A stretch of 52,992 bases of DNA from Fibrobacter sp. Lineage in GTDB: Bacteria > Fibrobacterota > Fibrobacteria > Fibrobacterales > Fibrobacteraceae. The stretch lies in assembly GCA_012511955.1 (NCBI GenBank), contig JAAZFC010000100.1, forward strand, positions 1 to 52,992, in the 5' to 3' direction. This document shows, piece by piece, positions 7,162-52,992 of this stretch. Made by a program: the position numbers and the translations under genes. Below the pieces are notes generated by a model. That model did not search any database and had not been told where the DNA came from. It was given only the letters and a program-made list of their open reading frames with translations. Positions within the stretch are counted from its first letter, which is position 1. The number at the start of each line of letters is the position of its first letter.

Positions 7162-8511
7162 ATGGCTAATTCCCAAGACGATAAAAACAAAAAACCTTCT
7201 GTTAAGAACCGAATTTTTCGTACTTTAACCAAAGAAATCATCATCCCTATTTCCCTGGCCTTGGTGGTAATATTTTTTGCCATCCAAGCATTTAAAATTC
7301 CCAGCGGATCCATGGAAAATTCCCTGCTCGTAGGAGATTTTTTATTGGGACTAAAATTCGTCTATGGGGCCCCCATTCCCTTTACCGACAAAAAGCTTCC
7401 CGCTTTGCAAGAAGTTAAAGAGGGTGATATTGTGATATTTCGCTTTCCAGGAGAGCCAGAATATCCAGATTATGAGCCCGATCGCTACAATCACATCGCC
7501 AATCTGCTGATGTTGGGTAACTTGTACTGGGATAAGCAACCAAAACCGGGAATGCCAAGGCTTGTGCACTTCCCCACGGGACCCAAAGATTTTATTAAAC
7601 GCTGTGTGGGGCTTAGTGGTCAAACTGTAGAAGTCAATAATGGTGTGTTAAAAGTAGATGGACAAATCAAACCTGTGCCTGGCTATGGATATTACACTCC
7701 CCAACCCCGAGAACCCACCCCCAAAGACTTTTTTTCCAAACGCAAAATACCCTCTCCTGGAGACACCCTACACTTAGATTCCATGGGCATTGTGGATTTA
7801 TGGTTTGCCCGCTCTTTGATGATGCAAGAAAACCCCCAACAAAGGTTTGAAATTCAAATGGAATTGATAGATCCCCACGGTAAAAAAGCATCTGAATTTG
7901 TGTTTCCCGACTTTAAAGTTCCACTTTTTTACCACAAAGCCATGCTAGCCAATATTATTTTAGAACAGAACGCCCCTTTTGCCCAAGCTCCTTTGGTTAT
8001 GGGCGATACCATTAGCGGCAAAGTTCCTTTTTCCTTTTTTAGTCACTATGCTAAAAGTGGTTTTATCAGCCACCCTACCCCGCCCCCAGGCAAATTTGCC
8101 CGCACCGTGGCCTATGACTTTTTTGACCCCACTCAGTTTGAAGATCTGGAGCATAATGTTCAGCTGTTAAATGAAAACCTCAAAGCTGCAGCCTTGGCAG
8201 CTAGTCTTGATACCGACAACGGTGAAAACCTTGATTCAGTTCCACCTGCACCTCAATATCGCCTCAATTATCAAATTAACCATCAAGGCAAAGCCATAAA
8301 CAAATATGTAGTGCAACAAAAAGTTTATTTTATGGTGGGCGATAATCGCGACAATTCCCAAGATAGTCGTTATTGGGGATTTGTAAGTGAAAGAAACATC
8401 AAGGCCAAGGCTTTTATCATTTACTTTTCTTCAGAAAGCTTTAACCCCCTTAAATACCGCTGGACTAGAATTGGCAAACTAATCCAAGACATCGGTCGTC
8501 CTAATCAGTAA
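7162..8511 (+). CDS. lepB: Signal peptidase I
   Basis: Membrane-bound serine protease that removes signal peptides from exported proteins. A single N-terminal membrane segment (about 25-44) is followed by the catalytic IPSGSM box with nucleophile Ser50, and the general-base Lys146 lies in KDFIKRCVG. The family box GDNRDNSQDSR-W-G is near residues 393-405. At 449 residues it is much longer than E. coli LepB (324). The extra length lies mainly between the lysine box and the GDNRDNSQDSR box (about residues 180-375) and probably forms an enlarged non-catalytic periplasmic domain. It lies between proS and an exported Ig-like lipoprotein, with a 1-base gap to the latter. Confidence 0.92.
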   Translation: MANSQDDKNKKPSVKNRIFRTLTKEIIIPISLALVVIFFAIQAFKIPSGSMENSLLVGDFLLGLKFVYGAPIPFTDKKLPALQEVKEGDIVIFRFPGEPEYPDYEPDRYNHIANLLMLGNLYWDKQPKPGMPRLVHFPTGPKDFIKRCVGLSGQTVEVNNGVLKVDGQIKPVPGYGYYTPQPREPTPKDFFSKRKIPSPGDTLHLDSMGIVDLWFARSLMMQENPQQRFEIQMELIDPHGKKASEFVFPDFKVPLFYHKAMLANIILEQNAPFAQAPLVMGDTISGKVPFSFFSHYAKSGFISHPTPPPGKFARTVAYDFFDPTQFEDLEHNVQLLNENLKAAALAASLDTDNGENLDSVPPAPQYRLNYQINHQGKAINKYVVQQKVYFMVGDNRDNSQDSRYWGFVSERNIKAKAFIIYFSSESFNPLKYRWTRIGKLIQDIGRPNQ

Positions 8512-8512
8512 A

Positions 8513-10249
8513 ATGCCCACCTTCAAAAAAATTGCAGCTTTTTGCAGTAGCGCTCTGCTTATATTTAGCTGCGCCACTGTGGTTCCCCCCGATGGTGGTC
8601 CCGAAGATAAAAGCCCGCCCCGCATTTTAGCGGTCTATCCCCCTCCTAACTCTACGGATAATCCTGAAGAGTTAAAAATCGTGTTACAATTTGACGAATG
8701 GATTAGCGATCCAGTCCCCAAAGGTGCCGTGCGTATATCTCCCCCAGTGGCAGGCCGAGTTTTAACTGAAGTTAAGGGCAATATGTTACATATAAGTTCC
8801 AATGAAAATTTAGATTCAGCCACCACTTATACTGCAGTGATTTCTAACGCTATCAAAGATTTGCGCAACAATCCCTTGGGCCAGCCTTATACCCTGCTTT
8901 TTTCCACCGGTCCCCAACTTGACACCTTAGAAGTTTCGGGTTGGGTTAAAATCCCTGACACCGCTTTAGTGCGCAAAAACTTTCCCGTGGTAGCCTTGTA
9001 CCCCATGGGAACAGAAAGGCAAAACAAAAGTTATTTGCAAAGAGTCTATAAAGACTCACTCAAAGACAGTTTAGTGCCTCAAATGGGCTTTGAGCCCGCT
9101 ATGTTAATTACCCAAACTGATAGCACAGGGCGTTTTGAGCTTTTTGGTGTAGCTCCGGGGGAATATCGAATAGCAGCCTTTATAGACGCTAACCGCAACA
9201 ATATCATAGATATACAACAAGAAATTGCAGGGGTTGGAAGCGGCGAAATACATGTTAAAGGACATTCTTTGGATTCAATATTTTTGTTTATGGATTCCCA
9301 AGACACCGCTAGTTTAAGCCTAAGTGAAGTTAGCCAACAGTTAGGATTTTTTATCAATTTAAAATTCAATCGGCCCATAAATAAAGAAAACTTAGATAGC
9401 ATTGCCTCTAATTGTGGAGTTTATAATAAAGACTCTACCTTAAAGCAAGCTGCCAATGCTTGGTGGCCTTTGGGCGACACTTCACAAATCAATTTGGCCT
9501 TCAATTATGAGTTTAGTGAAGATAGCAGCTATAATATTGGTTGTAACACCGAAGATTTACATAAATTTAACTGGCAAAACCCCAAAGACACCGCTCAGAG
9601 CTCTTTTGTGCGCCTATGGTTAGCCGATCACAATCCAGCATTGGATTCTACTCCGCTAATAGTGGGAACATACAATATCCCCATAAATGCCGATACAATT
9701 TTGCCCAGACTACGAGCTATTTACGATCAAGACACCATCCCATTAGTGGGAAAACAGCGTTACGCTAATTCTTGGGAAGCACGCCCTAGCAAAGTTTTAG
9801 CCAAGAATGCTAGAATTAGCATTGCTTTAGAACAAATTGATAGTTTAAAAAAAGACAGCACGGTAGAGGTTAAAACTTCGTGGCGACCTTTGAGTTTTAT
9901 AGAAACTGCAAACCCATTAGATTTAACTCAATATTCAGGAAAGATAAATGGATGTGACGAAAACATCGTTATAAGGCTATATTCTATTAAAAACAAACAA
10001 CAATACTTAAGCCATTGTGACGGTGAAGGAAATTTTATATTTAACGATATTTTAGTTGGTAAGTATTTCTTAGATTATTTTGCGGCTACGAACCAAGACC
10101 AAAAACCTTATGCTGGCAGTGTTAGCCCGTATCGAGTTGCCGAAGTTTGGAGATTTGTAGCCGATACTATTTTTATTACTAAGGAAACTCAAAACGACTC
10201 TATCACTTACCCTTCTTTAAAATCAGGAGCATATTATGAACTTAAATGA
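8513..10249 (+). CDS. Ig-like (Big_5/SbsA-type) domain lipoprotein
   Basis: Predicted envelope lipoprotein: signal peptide with lipobox IFSC (Cys20), then VPPDGGPEDKSPPRI and a bacterial Ig-like domain to about residue 130 ('NPEELKIVLQFDEWI ... TTYTAVISNAIKDLRNNPL'). The opening resembles a Bacteroidota/Fibrobacterota lipoprotein family with a conserved 'GGPxDxxPP' start after the lipid anchor. A second beta-rich region at about 205-245 ('GRFELFGVAPGEYRIAAFID') looks like a carboxypeptidase-regulatory-like fold. The rest is beta-rich without a recognised domain. It begins one base after lepB and overlaps the next gene by 14 bases, so the three are co-transcribed. No enzyme activity is suggested. 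Confidence 0.75.
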   Translation: MPTFKKIAAFCSSALLIFSCATVVPPDGGPEDKSPPRILAVYPPPNSTDNPEELKIVLQFDEWISDPVPKGAVRISPPVAGRVLTEVKGNMLHISSNENLDSATTYTAVISNAIKDLRNNPLGQPYTLLFSTGPQLDTLEVSGWVKIPDTALVRKNFPVVALYPMGTERQNKSYLQRVYKDSLKDSLVPQMGFEPAMLITQTDSTGRFELFGVAPGEYRIAAFIDANRNNIIDIQQEIAGVGSGEIHVKGHSLDSIFLFMDSQDTASLSLSEVSQQLGFFINLKFNRPINKENLDSIASNCGVYNKDSTLKQAANAWWPLGDTSQINLAFNYEFSEDSSYNIGCNTEDLHKFNWQNPKDTAQSSFVRLWLADHNPALDSTPLIVGTYNIPINADTILPRLRAIYDQDTIPLVGKQRYANSWEARPSKVLAKNARISIALEQIDSLKKDSTVEVKTSWRPLSFIETANPLDLTQYSGKINGCDENIVIRLYSIKNKQQYLSHCDGEGNFIFNDILVGKYFLDYFAATNQDQKPYAGSVSPYRVAEVWRFVADTIFITKETQNDSITYPSLKSGAYYELK

Positions 10250-12962
10250 ATTTATTGCCATAGACATCGAAAGTACTGGATTGGATCCTGATAAAGATGA
10301 AATTATCGAAATTGCCATGGTGCACTTTAAAGATTCCCAAGTGCAAAAAACTTTTAGTTCACTGATAAAACCCCAGCAGGAAGTACGCCCTTTTATTTTA
10401 AAGTTAACGGGGATTAATAACGAAGAATTAGCCTCGGCACCAGACTTTAAGGCTATTAGTGAAGAACTTATTAATTTCATGGGAACTTTGCCCATGGTGG
10501 CTCATAATGCGATTTTTGATAGCAGATTTTTGAAAACCGCTTTAAAGAAAGTCGATGCTCCTTATAAAATGCCGATTTTTTACGACTCGCTTTTGCTTTC
10601 TCGCATCGCTTGGCCTTTAATGCCCAACCATCGCTTAGAAACTCTGATTACCGAATTAAAACTTGTTCGGGAACAATCCCACCGCGCATTGCCCGATGCC
10701 CAAGCCTGCGGAGAGATGTTTTTGCTCGCCTTGGAAAAATGTCAGAAATTTAGCGATCTCAGCAAATATCACTTGGCGCAACTAAGCAAAAACAGCCCTT
10801 GGGAAAATATTTTTGGCAAATTCACCGATATTCCCAGCGAAACCACCATCACCGCTTGCCCCAGCACCGCAGATGCTCCCAACGATGAAAAACCAGATAT
10901 TCCCGTGCGCATTAGGGACTGGTTTGGCGCCGAAAGGCTTTTAGCCAAGAACTTTGCGAACTATACCAATAGCAACCCCCAAAATGACTACGCTGGCATT
11001 GTGGAACGCAATATGTTTCGAGGAGGAACGGCGGTTTTAGAATCTAACCCTGGCATAAACACCGCCCAGGCTTTTTTGGTTCCCGCTTTACTCAAAGTAG
11101 TACAAAGCCAGGGGCGATTAGTAATAAGTACGGGGAGCAAAGCCAGTCTAGATAATTTGGCTACCCAACTCGCGGCTTTACTCCCGCTTTTTGGCGCGCA
11201 TATCAAAGTCGCCACCATCAAAAAGCGTAACCACTATTTGTGTTTGCGCAAGTTCAATGAGCATTTGCAAAATCATGAACTTTTGCTCACTTCCGACGAA
11301 AAACTGCAAATTATGCCCCTAATTCCTTGGATAGAATTCACTCAAACTGGAGATGCTTCTGAAAACAATGGCTTTAATCTCAATCGCAACTGGCAATTAT
11401 GGTATAAATTGCAAAGCGATGCCGCTTCTTGTGTAGCTAATGACTGTGAATTTGCGGAACAGTGCTTTGCCCTTAAAGCCCGCAAAAAAGCTGAGGCCGC
11501 CAATGTATTAATCACCCAACATCAACTATTTATTGAAAATTTAGATGCTGATTTAGCGCTTTTACCCCGCTATGAACACAGCATTTTCTGTGATGCCCAC
11601 ACATTGCCCCAACTCAGCCATGGCATTTTGGGTAAAAACATCAGATTTTTTGACCTACGCAATCAAGTTAAAATCCTCGCCCACACCAGAGAAATGGAGA
11701 AAGGGCTTTTAGCCGTGCTAGAACAGAAGGTAGCAGAGAGCAATCGTGCAGAAGTACAGGAAAAATGCCAAAGCATTAGAAAACTTATTAGCGAGTGTGA
11801 AAAACAATTACATCGCTTTTTTATACGCATTGGTAAAAGCGTTAAAAAACAAGGTTCTAAACCTAATCTACGATATTCTTATAGCATACAAGCGGAGTAT
11901 GAAGCGGATAATAAAAACCTATTAGAAGGATTAATATCTTTTGAAAAACAAACTCAAGAATTAATAGACTCCTTACAAGAAAACCCTGAAATTAAGTTTC
12001 TCGTTAAAAATGTTGCCGGTATTTTAAGTGAATGTGAAAAATTCCGCAAAGACCTAGAGTTTGTATGCGTAGGTTCCAAAGAAGATTGGGTTTATTGGTT
12101 AGAAGAACCAGGCAACCCCCATACATTGGTAATGCAAGCGCAACCTCTTAGCATTCATAATTTATGGTTAAACAAACATTATAAATGGGTGCAGTCAACC
12201 TTGTTCACCTCTAATACTCTAAGCTTGGAAAACAATTTTGATTATTTCACTTGGAGAATGGGCTTAAAATCTCGCAACTTGCCTAAAAACAAAACGCCTT
12301 TTGTCCGTAAAGTTGCTAATCCGTGGAATGTTGAGGAAATGCGCAAAGTTGTGGTGGCAGACTTTTTGCCTAACCCCAGCGATAAAAACTTCCAAAAAGA
12401 AATGGATGCCTTATTAACTGAGATTTTAAATCCCAGCAATTTAAACACATTGGCCCTATACACCAGCCAATATTCCCTGCTACAAAGCCATGAAGCTTTA
12501 GAAGAAATTTTTGCGGAACAACAAAAACTCTTGCTTTCCCAAAGCACCGATGGGACTTTAAACAATTTGCTAGACCTTTTCCGTAAAGAAAAAGGCGCTT
12601 GTCTCCTGGCTAGTCAAAGCTATGCAGAGCATATTTTTCAACAAGAAATTGCTGTAGATTTACTGGTTTTAAGCAAGCTCCCTTTCCCCAGTCCTGGTGA
12701 CGCTTTAGTACAAGCCCAGGGCGAAGCGATTAAAGAGCGCAATGGCAACCCTTTTAGAGATGTTTTTATGCCCACCGCCCTTAATGAAATGCGCCTTGCC
12801 ATGGACAATATGCTTAAATTTTCCCAAGATAAAGGCATAGTTTTGATCTTAGACAAACGAGTTGTCACTGAAAAATATGGCCGCTCTTTTTGCAGTTTAT
12901 GGGATAACAAACATATTGTGGTAAAAAGTTTAGCTGATTTACAAAAGATTTTACTACAATAA
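10236..12962 (+). CDS. DinG-like protein: intact DEDDh exonuclease fused to an apparently ATPase-dead XPD/DinG helicase
   Basis: Residues 1-165 form a DnaQ-type 3'-5' exonuclease with all DEDDh residues visible: Asp10 and Glu12, Asp95, His149 and Asp154. The rest aligns by eye with DinG. Motif Ia-like VISTGSKASLDNLA is at 296-309, and four cysteines (336, 399, 404, 410) have the 5- and 6-residue spacing of the E. coli DinG iron-sulphur site. The KLPF and DKRVVTEKYGRSF segments lie at 814-817 and 873-885. The ATPase motifs are degraded: the Walker A region reads ESNPGINTAQA (269-279) without the GKT/GKS lysine, DEAH reads CDAH (452-455), and motif VI (QGxGRxxR in DinG) reads LAMDNMLKF. It probably acts as a nuclease that binds rather than unwinds DNA. 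AGGAGC precedes the ATG. Confidence 0.82.
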   Translation: MNLNEFIAIDIESTGLDPDKDEIIEIAMVHFKDSQVQKTFSSLIKPQQEVRPFILKLTGINNEELASAPDFKAISEELINFMGTLPMVAHNAIFDSRFLKTALKKVDAPYKMPIFYDSLLLSRIAWPLMPNHRLETLITELKLVREQSHRALPDAQACGEMFLLALEKCQKFSDLSKYHLAQLSKNSPWENIFGKFTDIPSETTITACPSTADAPNDEKPDIPVRIRDWFGAERLLAKNFANYTNSNPQNDYAGIVERNMFRGGTAVLESNPGINTAQAFLVPALLKVVQSQGRLVISTGSKASLDNLATQLAALLPLFGAHIKVATIKKRNHYLCLRKFNEHLQNHELLLTSDEKLQIMPLIPWIEFTQTGDASENNGFNLNRNWQLWYKLQSDAASCVANDCEFAEQCFALKARKKAEAANVLITQHQLFIENLDADLALLPRYEHSIFCDAHTLPQLSHGILGKNIRFFDLRNQVKILAHTREMEKGLLAVLEQKVAESNRAEVQEKCQSIRKLISECEKQLHRFFIRIGKSVKKQGSKPNLRYSYSIQAEYEADNKNLLEGLISFEKQTQELIDSLQENPEIKFLVKNVAGILSECEKFRKDLEFVCVGSKEDWVYWLEEPGNPHTLVMQAQPLSIHNLWLNKHYKWVQSTLFTSNTLSLENNFDYFTWRMGLKSRNLPKNKTPFVRKVANPWNVEEMRKVVVADFLPNPSDKNFQKEMDALLTEILNPSNLNTLALYTSQYSLLQSHEALEEIFAEQQKLLLSQSTDGTLNNLLDLFRKEKGACLLASQSYAEHIFQQEIAVDLLVLSKLPFPSPGDALVQAQGEAIKERNGNPFRDVFMPTALNEMRLAMDNMLKFSQDKGIVLILDKRVVTEKYGRSFCSLWDNKHIVVKSLADLQKILLQ

Positions 12963-39190: not shown

Positions 39191-42100
39191 TTAGAAAATC
39201 TCGTTCATTTTGTGGTACTCTTGCAGAGAAAAAACTTGCAGTTTTTGACTTTGCAGAGCTTCAATGGCCTCAGAAGTAGCCAAAGCAGCGGGTAAAGTAG
39301 TGGTATAGCTTATGGAATTGTACAGTGCAGTGGTTCTGATATATGCGTCATCTAGCTGAGCCGCTCTCCCTTTGGGAGTATTTATCAATAAATCCACATT
39401 TTGCGCTTCCATTAAATCCACCACATTAGGCGATTTTTTCTCCGAAAGTTTGGCGATTTCTTCGGCGGGTATTCCCATACCGTCTAAATGCGCAGCCGTG
39501 CCCTCGGTGGCGTAAATTTTAAAACCCAGGGAATGCAGTCTGCGAATGGCAGAATACATGCGTCCGCGATCGCGGGGATTTACACTCACAAAAGCTGAGC
39601 CACTGGTGGGCAAAGGACTTTCTGCGGCCATTTGGGACTTGGCAAAAGCCATACCAAATGACTTATCTATGCCCATAACTTCGCCGGTGGACTTCATTTC
39701 TGGGCTAAGTACCGTATCTACACCGCGAAACTTGCTAAAAGGAAGCACAGATTCTTTTACGCTCACATAACGGGGCATAATCTCTTTGGTAAAGCCCAAA
39801 TCTTTAAGTTTTTTACCCACCATTACCTTGGTAGCTAGCTTAGCCAAAGGTACGCCAATGGCTTTGGAGACAAAGGGCACCGTACGCGAGGCCCGGGGGT
39901 TTACTTCGAGAATATAAACCACATCGTTTTGAATGGCGAACTGAATATTCATTAGGCCTATGACTTTTAAAGCTTTGGCCAGCTTGCGAGCTTGGGATTT
40001 AACTTCTTCTATAACTTCGCCGTTAATGGAAATCGGGGGTAAAACACAGGCAGAATCCCCGGAATGTATTCCCGCTTCTTCTATATGTTGCATTAGCCCA
40101 GCCACCACTACGGTTTCGCCATCGCTAATGCAGTCCACATCCATTTCCACCGCATCTTGCAAAAACTTATCCACCAAAACCGGGCGTTCTTCGGAGGCCT
40201 CCACCGCATCGCTCATATAGCGACGCAGTTCTTCTTCGGTGTTCACGATCATCATAGCGCGGCCGCCCAACACAAAACTGGGACGCACCAATACTGGGTA
40301 GCCAATACGATCGGCGGCCACCACCGCTTCTTCTACACTACGTGCCAAACCGTTTTCAGGTTGGCGCAAACCCAGTTCATTTAATAAATCTGAAAACAGC
40401 TCGCGATCTTCGGCCAAATCAATGCTGTGAGGGCTAGTCCCAATAATTTTCGCACCAGCTTCTTCTAAAGCTGCGGCTAATTTAAGCGGAGTTTGTCCAC
40501 CAAATTGCAAAATCACTCCATCGGGTTTTTCGTGGTCAATAATCGCCAACACATCTTCCCGAGTTAGTGGCTCAAAATAAAGCTTATCCGAGGTGTCGTA
40601 ATCCGTAGAAACGGTTTCGGGGTTAGAATTGATCATAATCGCTTCGTAGCCTTCTTCTTGTAAGGCATAAGAAGCGTGCACGCAGCAATAATCAAACTCA
40701 ATTCCTTGACCAATGCGATTGGGACCACCGCCCAGAATCACTACTTTTTTGCGATCCGTACGCTGGGATTCATTTTCATTTTCATAACTAGAATAATGGT
40801 AAGGAACGGTGCTATCAAATTCGGCGGCGCAAGTATCTACGGTTTTAAAAACCGCATTTATATTTAAAGATTTGCGATAGGCTTCGGCGGCATGTTCGCC
40901 ACTTTGGGTTAAAAATCCGATTTGAACATCGGAATAACCCCATTCTTTGGCTTGGCGCAACACTTCAGGGCTAATTTCTTCGAGATTTTTGCCTTTAAGT
41001 TCTTCTTTTTCAAACTGCACCAATTCGGCGATGTGATTTAAGAACCAAGGATCCACCCCTGATGCTTCATAGAGCTTTTCCACACTCCATCCGTACTCCA
41101 AAGCCGCTTTAATGTAAAAAATGCGATCCGCTTTGGGTCGCTTAATATCGATTTGTGCTAGGATTTCGCTTTCTTCAATCTTTTGCTTGCCATCGGAACC
41201 TAAACCGCTGCGACCATTTTCCATGGAGCGCAAAGCTTTTTGTAGAGATTCTTTAAAAGTCCTACCAATGGACATGGCTTCGCCTACGGACTTCATTTGC
41301 GTGCCCAAGACATTTTCTGCCTGGGGGAACTTTTCAAAAGTAAAGCGCGGCACTTTGGTTACCACATAATCAATGCTAGGCTCAATATTGTACAAAGTGC
41401 TTTGGGTCAAATCATTTTTTAATTCGTCTAGGGTGTAGCCAATGGCTAATTTTGCTGCAATTTTAGCGATGGGAAAACCCGTGGCCTTAGATGCCAATGC
41501 AGAGGAGCGAGAAACCCTAGGGTTCATTTCTATCACGATTAAACGGCTATCTTCAGGATTTAGAGCGAATTGTATATTACAACCCCCGGTGCGCACACCA
41601 ATTTCACGGATGGCAGCAATGGAAGCTTCGCACATATTGCGATATTCTGCGGGGGTTAAGGTTTGGGCCGGGGCCACGGTGATGGAGTCCCCTGTATGAA
41701 TGCCCATGGCATCGAGGTTTTCAATGGAACATACCACAAGTACCGTGTCGTTGGCATCGCGAATTAGCTCAATTTCGAACTCTTTCCACCCCATTATGGA
41801 TTCTTCAATGAGAATTTCGTTGGTGGGGCTCAAAGTCAAGCCCCGTTGAGAAATCTCTAAAAATTCTTCTTCAGTATAAGCAAAACCGCCCCCTGCCCCA
41901 CCCAAAGTGTAAGCTGGGCGTATAACCAAGGGCAATCCTATCTCTGTTAAGGCCTCTTTGGCTTGCTCCATATTGCGTGCTATCACCGACTTGGCATTTT
42001 CTAAGCCAATTTTTTCCATGGCAGCACGAAACTCTTCACGGGACTCAGCTTTGCGAATGGCTTTGACATCTACCCCTATCATTTCCACATTGTACTTTTC

Positions 42101-42424
42101 CAAAACTCCGCGATCGTGGAGAGCCAAAGCACAATTTAATGCTGTTTGTCCTCCCAATGTGGGCAAAACCGCATCGGGACGCTCTTTTTCAATGATTTTT
42201 TCCACCACTTCCGGGGTAATGGGTTCAATATAAACCGCATCGGCTGTTTCCGGGTCAGTCATGATGGTGGCAGGATTGGAATTAACCAAAACTACTTGAT
42301 AACCTTCAGAGCGAATGGCTTTGCAAGCTTGGGTTCCTGAATAATCAAATTCACAAGCTTGTCCTATAACAATGGGTCCACTTCCGATAATCAGTATTTT
42401 TTGGATATCTTGGCGTTTTGGCAT
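39191..42424 (-). CDS. carB: Carbamoyl-phosphate synthase large subunit
   Basis: Makes carbamoyl phosphate from ammonia (delivered by CarA), bicarbonate and two ATP, for arginine and pyrimidines. The 1077-residue length equals the standard enzyme. Two homologous halves are clear: '[28 protein letters not shown]' and '[25 protein letters not shown]', each followed by an ATP-grasp domain ('[24 protein letters not shown]', '[24 protein letters not shown]'). The C-terminal MGS-like allosteric domain starts near residue 935 ('[39 protein letters not shown]'). carA is not in the window. AGGAA precedes the ATG. Confidence 0.97.
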
Positions 42425-50418: not shown

Positions 50419-52992
50419 TTAGTAACGTCCAGAAGAATTAGCGTTTTCTATGTAATATTTAGCTCCTTCCAAAAAGCGACGATGTCTTTTTTGAACCCAT
50501 TGCGTTGTATTTATGTCGTAATATTTGTAGAACCGATTTATCGTTTCATTTTGAATTGCTCTAACCTCTAGAAATGCTTTTAAACTAGAAGCTTCCTTAG
50601 CAGGTAACATCTTTTTATAAGGTCCATATAACTCTGTTAAATCACCCTGTGCATCTTTTATGTGACCGTGCTCATGAACTATTGCCGTATAAAAGTTACT
50701 TGCTGAAAATTCTCCACTTGCCTCATAACCAGTTTGCCAACTTATATTAATCTCTGGCTTACCACCTATTATACGAAATTTAGTTTTTCCATCATCTTCT
50801 ATGTCATTAGATCTTATTACTGGCACATCGATATTTTCTCGCTTTGCTACATACTCCCCCATTTTTTCTATGTAAGAAAAATCTCCTATACCACCTTGCG
50901 CTTTTTCATTGCCGTATTCTAATACTGTTTGATGTGTTTGCCACTTGAACCTATCAGATAACCCATAATGTACCGCACCTTTTAAACCACCAGCCAATCC
51001 TCCGCTTACGCCTCCAATTAACATGAATTGCGAAAAAATCCAAAAGTCCCATTTTTCTTTTTCAACAATCTGGTTGGCGGTATAAGCAACACCCCCTGAT
51101 AATGAGGCTATCGCTGCACCTTTAGCAGCTTCACCAGCTGCAGCAGCAAGAAGTCCAGAGCCGGTTGATAGTCCAGTAGCTCCAGCTACAACATTGCCTA
51201 TGCCGCCTACTAAGCCTGGTATGAAAGCTGTTAGTCCTCCCGCAACAACACCTACTGTTACACTCCTAACACAATTTACCTCAGATGACCCCATACACTG
51301 AACTAAGCCACTTACTGCTCCTATTCCAGCCCCTGCAACAATATGTACAGCTTCCCCATTGGGGTCTATGTAGTTAATCGGGTCATTGCCATAGCTATAC
51401 GGATTCGCAAACTGTCCGGCGGGGTCGGGGCTCATCCATTGCCCAAATAAAGGGTCAAAATACCGCGCTCCAAAATAATACTTGTCATGTTCCCCATCGT
51501 ATTCTTTGCTTTGCCAGCGCTTCCTGTCGGTCTCGCTATCTTCTTTGAGGGTGATGGTCATGCCATACGGCAAATAATCATAAGCGCTAACTACCCCTTG
51601 GCGATTAGCATACATACGCACATTGCCCTGGGCATCAGTAATGGGAAAATACGCTCGGTTTTCACCATTTTGATTCATAGCGCGGTAGCCTCCACCGATG
51701 AGGTCTAAGCGCTGTAGGCTAAAATCATTGCTATCAATGGATTTATAAACCCCCACCCCGCTAAAGGTAGCTTCCGTATAGGACATATTATCATCACTAT
51801 GGTAGCTATACCATAGGCGATTACCACCAGAATAGGCCATTTCTAGCTTATCGCCGTAATGGGATTCAGGTAGCGTTCCATTGGTAACTTGGTTATAAGT
51901 TGCATTGTGTTTTAGTTTATAAGCGGTTAGCGGTAGTCCGGCGGCATCGAGTTTATAAGCCGTGGAGCGGTATTGATCGAACCACACATTACCCGAAGAG
52001 TCATAGTCAAAAGCTACTTGGTGGGCATTAGGTGCCCGACCAGTTACCCCATAAAACTGAGGTCTGTAGCGATCGGGGGAATAAGCATAGCCCACGCCTA
52101 TATTATCCTCAAATTTGGAGGTTAAACGCCCCAAGTTGTCATAGCTATAGTTAGCGTTTTTGGGGCCACTTACCTCAGACAAACGCCCCAGATAGTCATA
52201 ACTGTAATGGTAATTTAGGACACTGGCTCCACTGTGGTTGAGTTGATGGTAATCGTGGCTCACAACTTGCATACGGCTAGCCCAGGGTTTTTCATAGGTT
52301 AGAGACTGGGTGTATAGGGGGGCATTTCCCTTGGTGTATTTAAGCTGGGTGGGGCGACCGTGAATGTCGGTGAGGATTTGTTTGGTAAAGACTTCGCTAC
52401 CTTGGTCGTAGTAGCTTTTGTTTTTAGTGTTGCCGTTAGCGGTGTATTCATAAGACGCCATGAGCTTATCCGCTCCGTTTACCACCTCGAAGGTGTGGGT
52501 TAGGCGACCTTGGGAGTCATATTGGCGTTTGCGTTGGGATTTAGCTTGCCAGTGGCCATTTTCCCATTGTGAATAGGAGCTATTTACTAGCTCACCGGCG
52601 GCATTGTAATTATAGTATAGTTGCACAGCCGGCAAACCACCTAATCCATATACCATCCATTGCTTGTTTTTTTGCCCCATCCGGTCAAACGAAGCCATGC
52701 TTACACTGGTCATATTTCCATCATCGCCGTAGGTGATGTGCGCTCCCACATCGAGGGCTTTAATGTTTTCCATGGCGGCTAAAATGCTGTCTGCAAGGGT
52801 GTTATCGTTTAGCAACTCCATTAAATTTTCCGGCGTGGGTTTGCCATAAACAAAGCGCTCATGGAGTTTAATATTGCTCCCAGGAATGTCTGCATCGGGG
52901 TTGGTGAAGCTGTACTGGCCTTGTACCTCTCCCACTGCCTCTACTCTGCCTATACTATCGAATATTTTTACCGAGAAATAGTTGGCACCCAA
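50419..52992 (-). CDS. Rhs-repeat protein with C-terminal zinc-metallopeptidase-like toxin domain (5' end outside window)
   Basis: Only the last 857 codons are present. YD repeats ('YSYDYLGRLSEVSGPKNANYSYDNLGRLTSKF') lead to the Rhs core at about residues 505-545 ('KYYFGARYFDPLFGQWMSPDPAG ... NPYSYGNDPINYIDPNGE'). After DPNGE a variable C-terminal domain of about 313 residues follows. It begins with a glycine/alanine-rich, membrane-like region (about 546-680) and contains HEHGH at 773-777 (DNA 50662-50676), the HExxH zinc motif. A downstream 'KAFLEVRAIQNE' could supply the third ligand. The domain probably hydrolyses a protein or peptide target in a rival cell. Confidence 0.85.
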   Translation of the reverse strand: MGANYFSVKIFDSIGRVEAVGEVQGQYSFTNPDADIPGSNIKLHERFVYGKPTPENLMELLNDNTLADSILAAMENIKALDVGAHITYGDDGNMTSVSMASFDRMGQKNKQWMVYGLGGLPAVQLYYNYNAAGELVNSSYSQWENGHWQAKSQRKRQYDSQGRLTHTFEVVNGADKLMASYEYTANGNTKNKSYYDQGSEVFTKQILTDIHGRPTQLKYTKGNAPLYTQSLTYEKPWASRMQVVSHDYHQLNHSGASVLNYHYSYDYLGRLSEVSGPKNANYSYDNLGRLTSKFEDNIGVGYAYSPDRYRPQFYGVTGRAPNAHQVAFDYDSSGNVWFDQYRSTAYKLDAAGLPLTAYKLKHNATYNQVTNGTLPESHYGDKLEMAYSGGNRLWYSYHSDDNMSYTEATFSGVGVYKSIDSNDFSLQRLDLIGGGYRAMNQNGENRAYFPITDAQGNVRMYANRQGVVSAYDYLPYGMTITLKEDSETDRKRWQSKEYDGEHDKYYFGARYFDPLFGQWMSPDPAGQFANPYSYGNDPINYIDPNGEAVHIVAGAGIGAVSGLVQCMGSSEVNCVRSVTVGVVAGGLTAFIPGLVGGIGNVVAGATGLSTGSGLLAAAAGEAAKGAAIASLSGGVAYTANQIVEKEKWDFWIFSQFMLIGGVSGGLAGGLKGAVHYGLSDRFKWQTHQTVLEYGNEKAQGGIGDFSYIEKMGEYVAKRENIDVPVIRSNDIEDDGKTKFRIIGGKPEINISWQTGYEASGEFSASNFYTAIVHEHGHIKDAQGDLTELYGPYKKMLPAKEASSLKAFLEVRAIQNETINRFYKYYDINTTQWVQKRHRRFLEGAKYYIENANSSGRY

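Follow-up and report, generated by a model that had tools for sequence, protein, structure and literature searches.

An ExoDinG of a Fibrobacter sp. with a degenerate ATP site: a probable ATP-independent exonuclease with a retained helicase body

What does a DNA-repair protein that fuses an exonuclease to an ATP-driven helicase become once the ATP site of its helicase has been lost? The question is raised by a gene in a window of 52,992 nucleotides from a Fibrobacter sp. (contig JAAZFC010000100.1), the window being the whole stretch of DNA that was analysed. The gene (10236..12962, + strand, as for all features given below unless stated) has an ATG start, preceded by a likely ribosome-binding site, GGAG, which lies 6 nt 5' of the ATG and within the end of the upstream ORF (10226..10229). 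It encodes an ExoDinG of 908 residues, consisting of an exonuclease and an apparently ATPase-dead XPD/DinG body. Residues 1-170 (10236..10745) form the predicted DEDDh 3'-5' exonuclease domain, based on the DEDHD alignment and on a Pfam RNase_T match (residues 7-161, 1.5e-30), and Helicase_C_2 covers residues 729-890 (1.5e-20). The best NCBIfam model, DinG PRK08074, matches end to end at 8.9e-125, although at about half its curated score, i.e. under the curated cut-off, and among PDB sequences S. aureus DinG matches best, over residues 4 to 891. Immediately upstream, with a 14 bp overlap, is the gene of a Big_5-domain lipoprotein (8513..10249), preceded by the signal peptidase gene lepB (Peptidase_S26, 7162..8511). 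Both neighbours are conserved, and the order lepB, Big_5 lipoprotein, dinG is common to the window, the Fibrobacteraceae loci and locus L102 of family f2; the window gene is therefore an ortholog, and the gene tree agrees with the synteny on orthologous descent. At the far end of the window, an ORF of 857 aa (50419-52992, - strand), open at the window edge, has no Pfam match.

The sequence-only reading held that the protein had kept its exonuclease residues and iron-sulphur cysteines and had lost its ATPase motifs, and a motif and cysteine table of about 55 homologues bears this out. The DEDDh residues D10, E12, D95, H149 and D154 are all present and aligned to the catalytic columns of the family, i.e. 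the N-terminal domain is that of an ExoDinG with a complete catalytic set. The cysteines C336 (11241..11243) and C399, C404 and C410 (Cx4Cx5C, 11430..11465) likewise fall in the Fe-S columns, and the spacing of the last three is that of E. coli DinG, the E. coli sequence serving as a comparison row only. Four cysteines in the DinG spacing place the protein with the Fe-S and not the pFeS type of DinG. The ATP site, on the other hand, is degenerate. The Walker A segment reads ESNPGINTAQA (residues 269-279, 11040..11072) for EAGTGTGKTLA in relatives, motif II is CDAH (residues 452-455, 11589..11600) for DEAH, and motif VI is RLAMDNMLK (residues 853-861, 12792..12818) for RQGxGRxxR, in relatives RQGxGRLIR. 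Motif V is broken as well (AEHIFQQ for WEGxDxP, within residues 792-804, 12609..12647), and motif III is altered (FTSNTL, with SNTL for the SATL of FTSATL, 12204..12221). With the Walker A GKT/S, DEAH and the motif VI arginines missing, the protein does not have the make-up of an active DinG/XPD SF2 helicase.

Altogether 9 of 11 ATP-site positions are changed, and the two that persist, the Q-motif Gln249 and the P-loop Gly273, might belong to a rearranged site that still binds or hydrolyses ATP, the more so as the structural model keeps the strand-loop-helix shape of the P-loop. We consider this scarcely credible, however, given that the Walker lysine, the Asp and Glu of DEAH, motif V and all the motif VI arginines are lost together and that no alternative GKT/GKS stands in a P-loop context. 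The protein has a single GK[ST], within RIGKS near residue 534, where relatives read KIGKK. It lies in a helix of the Arch domain (residues ~471-650, 11646..12185, modelled as helical, with limits inferred from the DinG/XPD order); it was rejected as an alternative P-loop because of that location. A genome-wide, sequencing, assembly or genetic-code artefact was also rejected, because the motifs GSGKT, DEEH and GRAGR and the zinc cysteines are all intact in PriA, whose gene lies 10 kb downstream in the window.

The pattern of loss within the protein is uneven. Among columns that at least 90% of 34 intact relatives share, the window protein keeps 36 of 38 in the exonuclease, 15 of 17 in the Fe-S region and 57 of 73 in the helicase outside the motifs, against 14 of 35 in the ATPase motifs, and the concentration of loss in these motifs (Fisher p = 1.8e-4) therefore exceeds chance. 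All seven of the mapped ssDNA-contact positions are kept: K329 and R331 (11220..11228), equivalent to K336 and K338 of the ssDNA channel in S. aureus DinG, and K814, F817, F840, R875 and Y881 (12675..12878), equivalent to S. aureus K801, F804, F823, R858 and Y864. The contacts were transferred from the S. aureus DinG structure at about 18% identity, with the contact list taken from PMC12345164, where mutagenesis shows their role in DNA binding or unwinding. Branch rates tell a similar story. The ratio of the window's own branch to its sister branch is 1.45 for lepB, 1.62 for the lipoprotein, 2.1 for the exonuclease and 2.0 for the helicase outside the motifs, and rises to 5.8 for the ATPase motifs, a rough figure since it rests on 76 columns; it is also raised, to 3.0, over 101 columns surrounding the Fe-S cysteines. 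These rates indicate that constraint is lifted mainly at the ATP-binding site, and the somewhat faster change of the exonuclease and non-motif helicase relative to the neighbouring genes leaves room for partly relaxed constraint there as well. A long branch with degenerate motifs is also what a functionless pseudogene in early decay would give, but we regard this as very improbable. The ORF runs through 908 codons with neither stop nor frameshift over a branch of ~1 substitution per site, its codon-position composition is normal, and the changes are concentrated in the motifs of a protein with a nearly unchanged exonuclease.

An AlphaFold2 model built from an alignment of 38 sequences has a mean pLDDT of 90.6 and a pTM of 0.88, and in a Foldseek search the two highest matches are both S. 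aureus DinG (8zef, TM 0.72), followed by E. coli DinG, XPD and CasDinG. The comparison with E. coli DinG thus returned a confident DinG fold, with the S. aureus protein as the best match and that of E. coli next, and the body is of the XPD type, matching 8zef, 9ii8 and 6fwr in having two RecA-like domains, an Fe-S/pFeS domain and an Arch domain. The genome has the means for Fe-S assembly in two SufB/D-type genes, and from these genes and the four cysteines we infer that the protein binds a [4Fe-4S] cluster.

Is the window gene an isolated case? A match to ExoDinG was found in 158 of 168 genomes of the phylum. Four Fibrobacterota genomes (G040, G051, G060 and G076) have no match at E <= 1e-30, and two of these, G040 and G060, are 96% complete with little contamination; the whole gene may be dispensable in places. 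The close homologues do have a normal Walker A, which does not rescue the ATP site of the window protein and instead marks the loss as lineage-specific and recurrent. The site is intact in the 34 members examined outside the losing lineages, in all 24 additional members from other families, and in 63 named loci, overlapping with the set of 34, except one, L102. It is lost in the window genus g1 (one genome), in g6 and g8 (11 genomes examined; g6 is Candidatus Fibrimonadaceae/Fibrimonadales by its named loci), in g12 of f2 (2 genomes) and in g13 and g15 of f3 (9 genomes). The DEDDh residues are kept in all homologues where they were examined. In g1, g6, g8 and f2 the Fe-S cysteines are kept after loss of the ATPase, whereas f3 has lost them too. 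Across the Fibrobacterota alignment, therefore, the lost lysine and kept cysteines seen in the window protein are not uniform, the lysine being intact in most members and the cysteines gone from f3. The combination of a lost ATP site and kept ssDNA contacts recurs in the Fibrimonads; f2 keeps only the domain-2 contacts, and g13 has lost its ssDNA contacts in addition to the cysteines. The converse variant also exists, in that L008, L009, L021 and L027 combine intact ATPase motifs with substitution of one or two of the Fe-S cysteines (CSCC, CCHC, CAHC). In a scan of viral contigs nearly all matches were limited to the exonuclease domain, with one, L162, extending to residue 436, and a single-protein scan of the genome contigs gave no match.

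The number of losses depends on the relationships of the window genus. Its nearest relative is G010 (g11), which has an intact DinG and shares 83% identity in carB, 57% in lepB, 57% in priA and 67% in gltX. A concatenated rpoB, priA and gltX tree groups the two with a support of 97 and rejects a clade of the window genus with the Fibrimonads (AU p = 0.0018), on which ground a single loss shared with the Fibrimonads was rejected. The DinG gene tree likewise groups the window genus with G010 (support 95), although on its own it does not reject the clade with the Fibrimonads (p 0.445). Since regain of Walker A is very unlikely, the trees point to a minimum of four independent ATPase losses in the phylum, with the exonuclease kept in every homologue examined. 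As a separate observation, the carB of the window (39191-42424, - strand) is 65-67% identical to that of f3/f4 and only about 50-60% to that of most other Fibrobacteraceae, and several such Fibrobacteraceae genomes hold a second full-length carB match at about 50%, which suggests that within the family carB has been replaced or has paralogs.

Alternatively, the body itself might be an inert relic, with only the exonuclease under selection and the rest staying for folding or through slow decay. The helicase motifs are broken in at least four lineages, and the absence of cysteines from f3 and of ssDNA contacts from g13 means that the body can be discarded. Of the dN/dS figures, which are those of the Fibrimonads, f3/g15 and f2 (g1 being one genome with no close relative), that of f2 is 0.54, from one pair, and those of f3/g15 are 0.2-0.3. 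We nevertheless find the relic account unlikely, because the window protein keeps most of its conserved non-motif helicase positions, the four cysteines and the seven ssDNA contacts, and because in the Fibrimonads the body is a gene of its own. In these termite-gut bacteria the gene is split into adjacent genes for an exonuclease of 192-223 aa and a motor-less body of 606-648 aa (L051, L032, L036, L042, L043, L048, L049, L050 and L058; g6/g8). In nearly all members the two genes meet at junctions of -4 to +11 bp, and they are probably translationally coupled. Both are under purifying selection, with dN/dS of about 0.03-0.14 for the exonuclease and about 0.07-0.17 for the body, and the stand-alone body is predicted to take the DinG fold (pLDDT 86.4), with E. 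coli DinG as top match. Support for folding of the exonuclease explains such a gene poorly.

The published work on ExoDinG offers a precedent for activity of the nuclease apart from the motor. The K290A mutant of B. subtilis DinG remains able to degrade ssDNA, its binding of ssDNA, at 1.1 nM, is close to the 0.7 nM of the wild type, and the toxicity of DinG overexpression needs the exonuclease and not ATP hydrolysis (PMC12525004). In Listeria, where DinG removes unprocessed rRNA, the E465A mutant retains exonuclease activity (PMC12774634). Since ATPase-site mutants retain these activities, loss of the motor would leave an enzyme that grips a strand and trims its 3' end. The older description of S. 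aureus DinG as a helicase turned nuclease, repeated in the sequence-only reading, is outdated, as 5'-3' helicase activity was later shown, and its ATPase is required for resistance to mitomycin and crosslinks in vivo (PMC12345164); loss of the ATPase in the window protein should therefore cost that function. The Bacillota ExoDinGs of S. aureus, B. subtilis and Listeria share the exonuclease-XPD architecture and fold of the window protein but have a working ATP site and no Fe-S cysteines, the reverse of what is found here. The intact Fibrobacteraceae ExoDinG (L004/L059, g11), an ortholog at the same locus with about 43% identity over the full length and four cysteines, differs in its intact GTGTGKT, DEAH and RQGxGRLIR. 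E. coli DinG and XPD have the same fold, Fe-S and Arch domains and cysteine spacing, but are active 5'-3' helicases with no exonuclease domain. The cyanobacterial sDinG is DinG-like with a similarly degenerate ATP site, but lacks both the nuclease and the Fe-S domain (PMC11981726). The literature searched yielded no report of an ExoDinG that is split or ATPase-dead.

The interpretation that we favour, with a probability of roughly two in three, sees the window protein as an ATP-independent 3'-5' exonuclease, with the helicase body serving as a passive single-strand clamp. The motor of an orthologous ExoDinG would have been disabled by substitution, and the N-terminal DEDDh domain would work as a 3'-5' exonuclease with no need of ATP. 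The XPD-fold body, braced by the four-cysteine Fe-S domain and lined with the domain-2 ssDNA-contact residues, would capture single strands and offer their 3' end to the nuclease, translocation and unwinding being gone. Candidate substrates would be 3' tails at stalled forks, R-loop RNA and unprocessed rRNA. Exonuclease activity, Fe-S assembly, clamp action and substrates are all deduced here. The suggestion that the body had become a redox- or structure-sensing DNA-binding clamp for the nuclease thus survives in part. The clamp fits the loss of the ATP site, the retention of ssDNA contacts, cysteines, fold and locus, and the recurrence of the pattern; for sensing we found nothing in support. 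A redox- or structure-responsive switch, with the Fe-S domain as sensor and as gate of the nuclease, would fit the persistence of the cysteines beyond the motor, and a review assigns redox sensing to the Fe-S domain of DinG and describes the cluster of the E. coli protein as redox-active on DNA (PMC11981726). Such a switch seems to us improbable, since a structural role accounts equally well for the kept cysteines, the four loci of the converse variant dispense with one or two of them while retaining the ATPase motifs, and no signature of sensing was found.

The clamp interpretation recalls AddB and RecC, in which a motor-dead helicase fold is also retained as a single-strand reader beside a nuclease; AddB also carries an Fe-S cluster required for DNA binding (PMC4824097 and the title of a work cited there). 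Those proteins differ in belonging to superfamily 1 and an unrelated lineage, in acting in a complex with a live motor and in recognizing Chi. The window fold is XPD/DinG, of SF2, and not SF1 UvrD-like, and on this comparison the resemblance is functional only, one of working and not of descent. More tentative, and to us slightly doubtful, is the wider proposal that the ExoDinG of the class Fibrobacteria was repeatedly rebuilt as an ATP-independent nuclease with an Fe-S clamp, of which the two-subunit form of the Fibrimonads, with the motor-less XPD acting in trans, would be the SF2 counterpart of AddB/RecC.

In the genome, which is 97% complete, no XPD-type protein was found besides the window protein, no other Helicase_C_2 or DEAD_2 match being above the cut-off. 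Compensation by a second helicase was rejected on this basis, and the organism probably lacks XPD-type unwinding activity. The recurrent loss of the motor amounts to a natural separation-of-function experiment for ExoDinG. The motor was apparently removed at least four times and the nuclease kept in all homologues examined, and it would therefore be the nuclease, not unwinding, that selection holds in these bacteria. For XPD-family enzymes it is debated whether the Fe-S cluster serves DNA holding or unwinding. That the Fe-S cysteines outlast the ATPase in three of the four lineages would separate the DNA-holding role of the cluster from its unwinding role.
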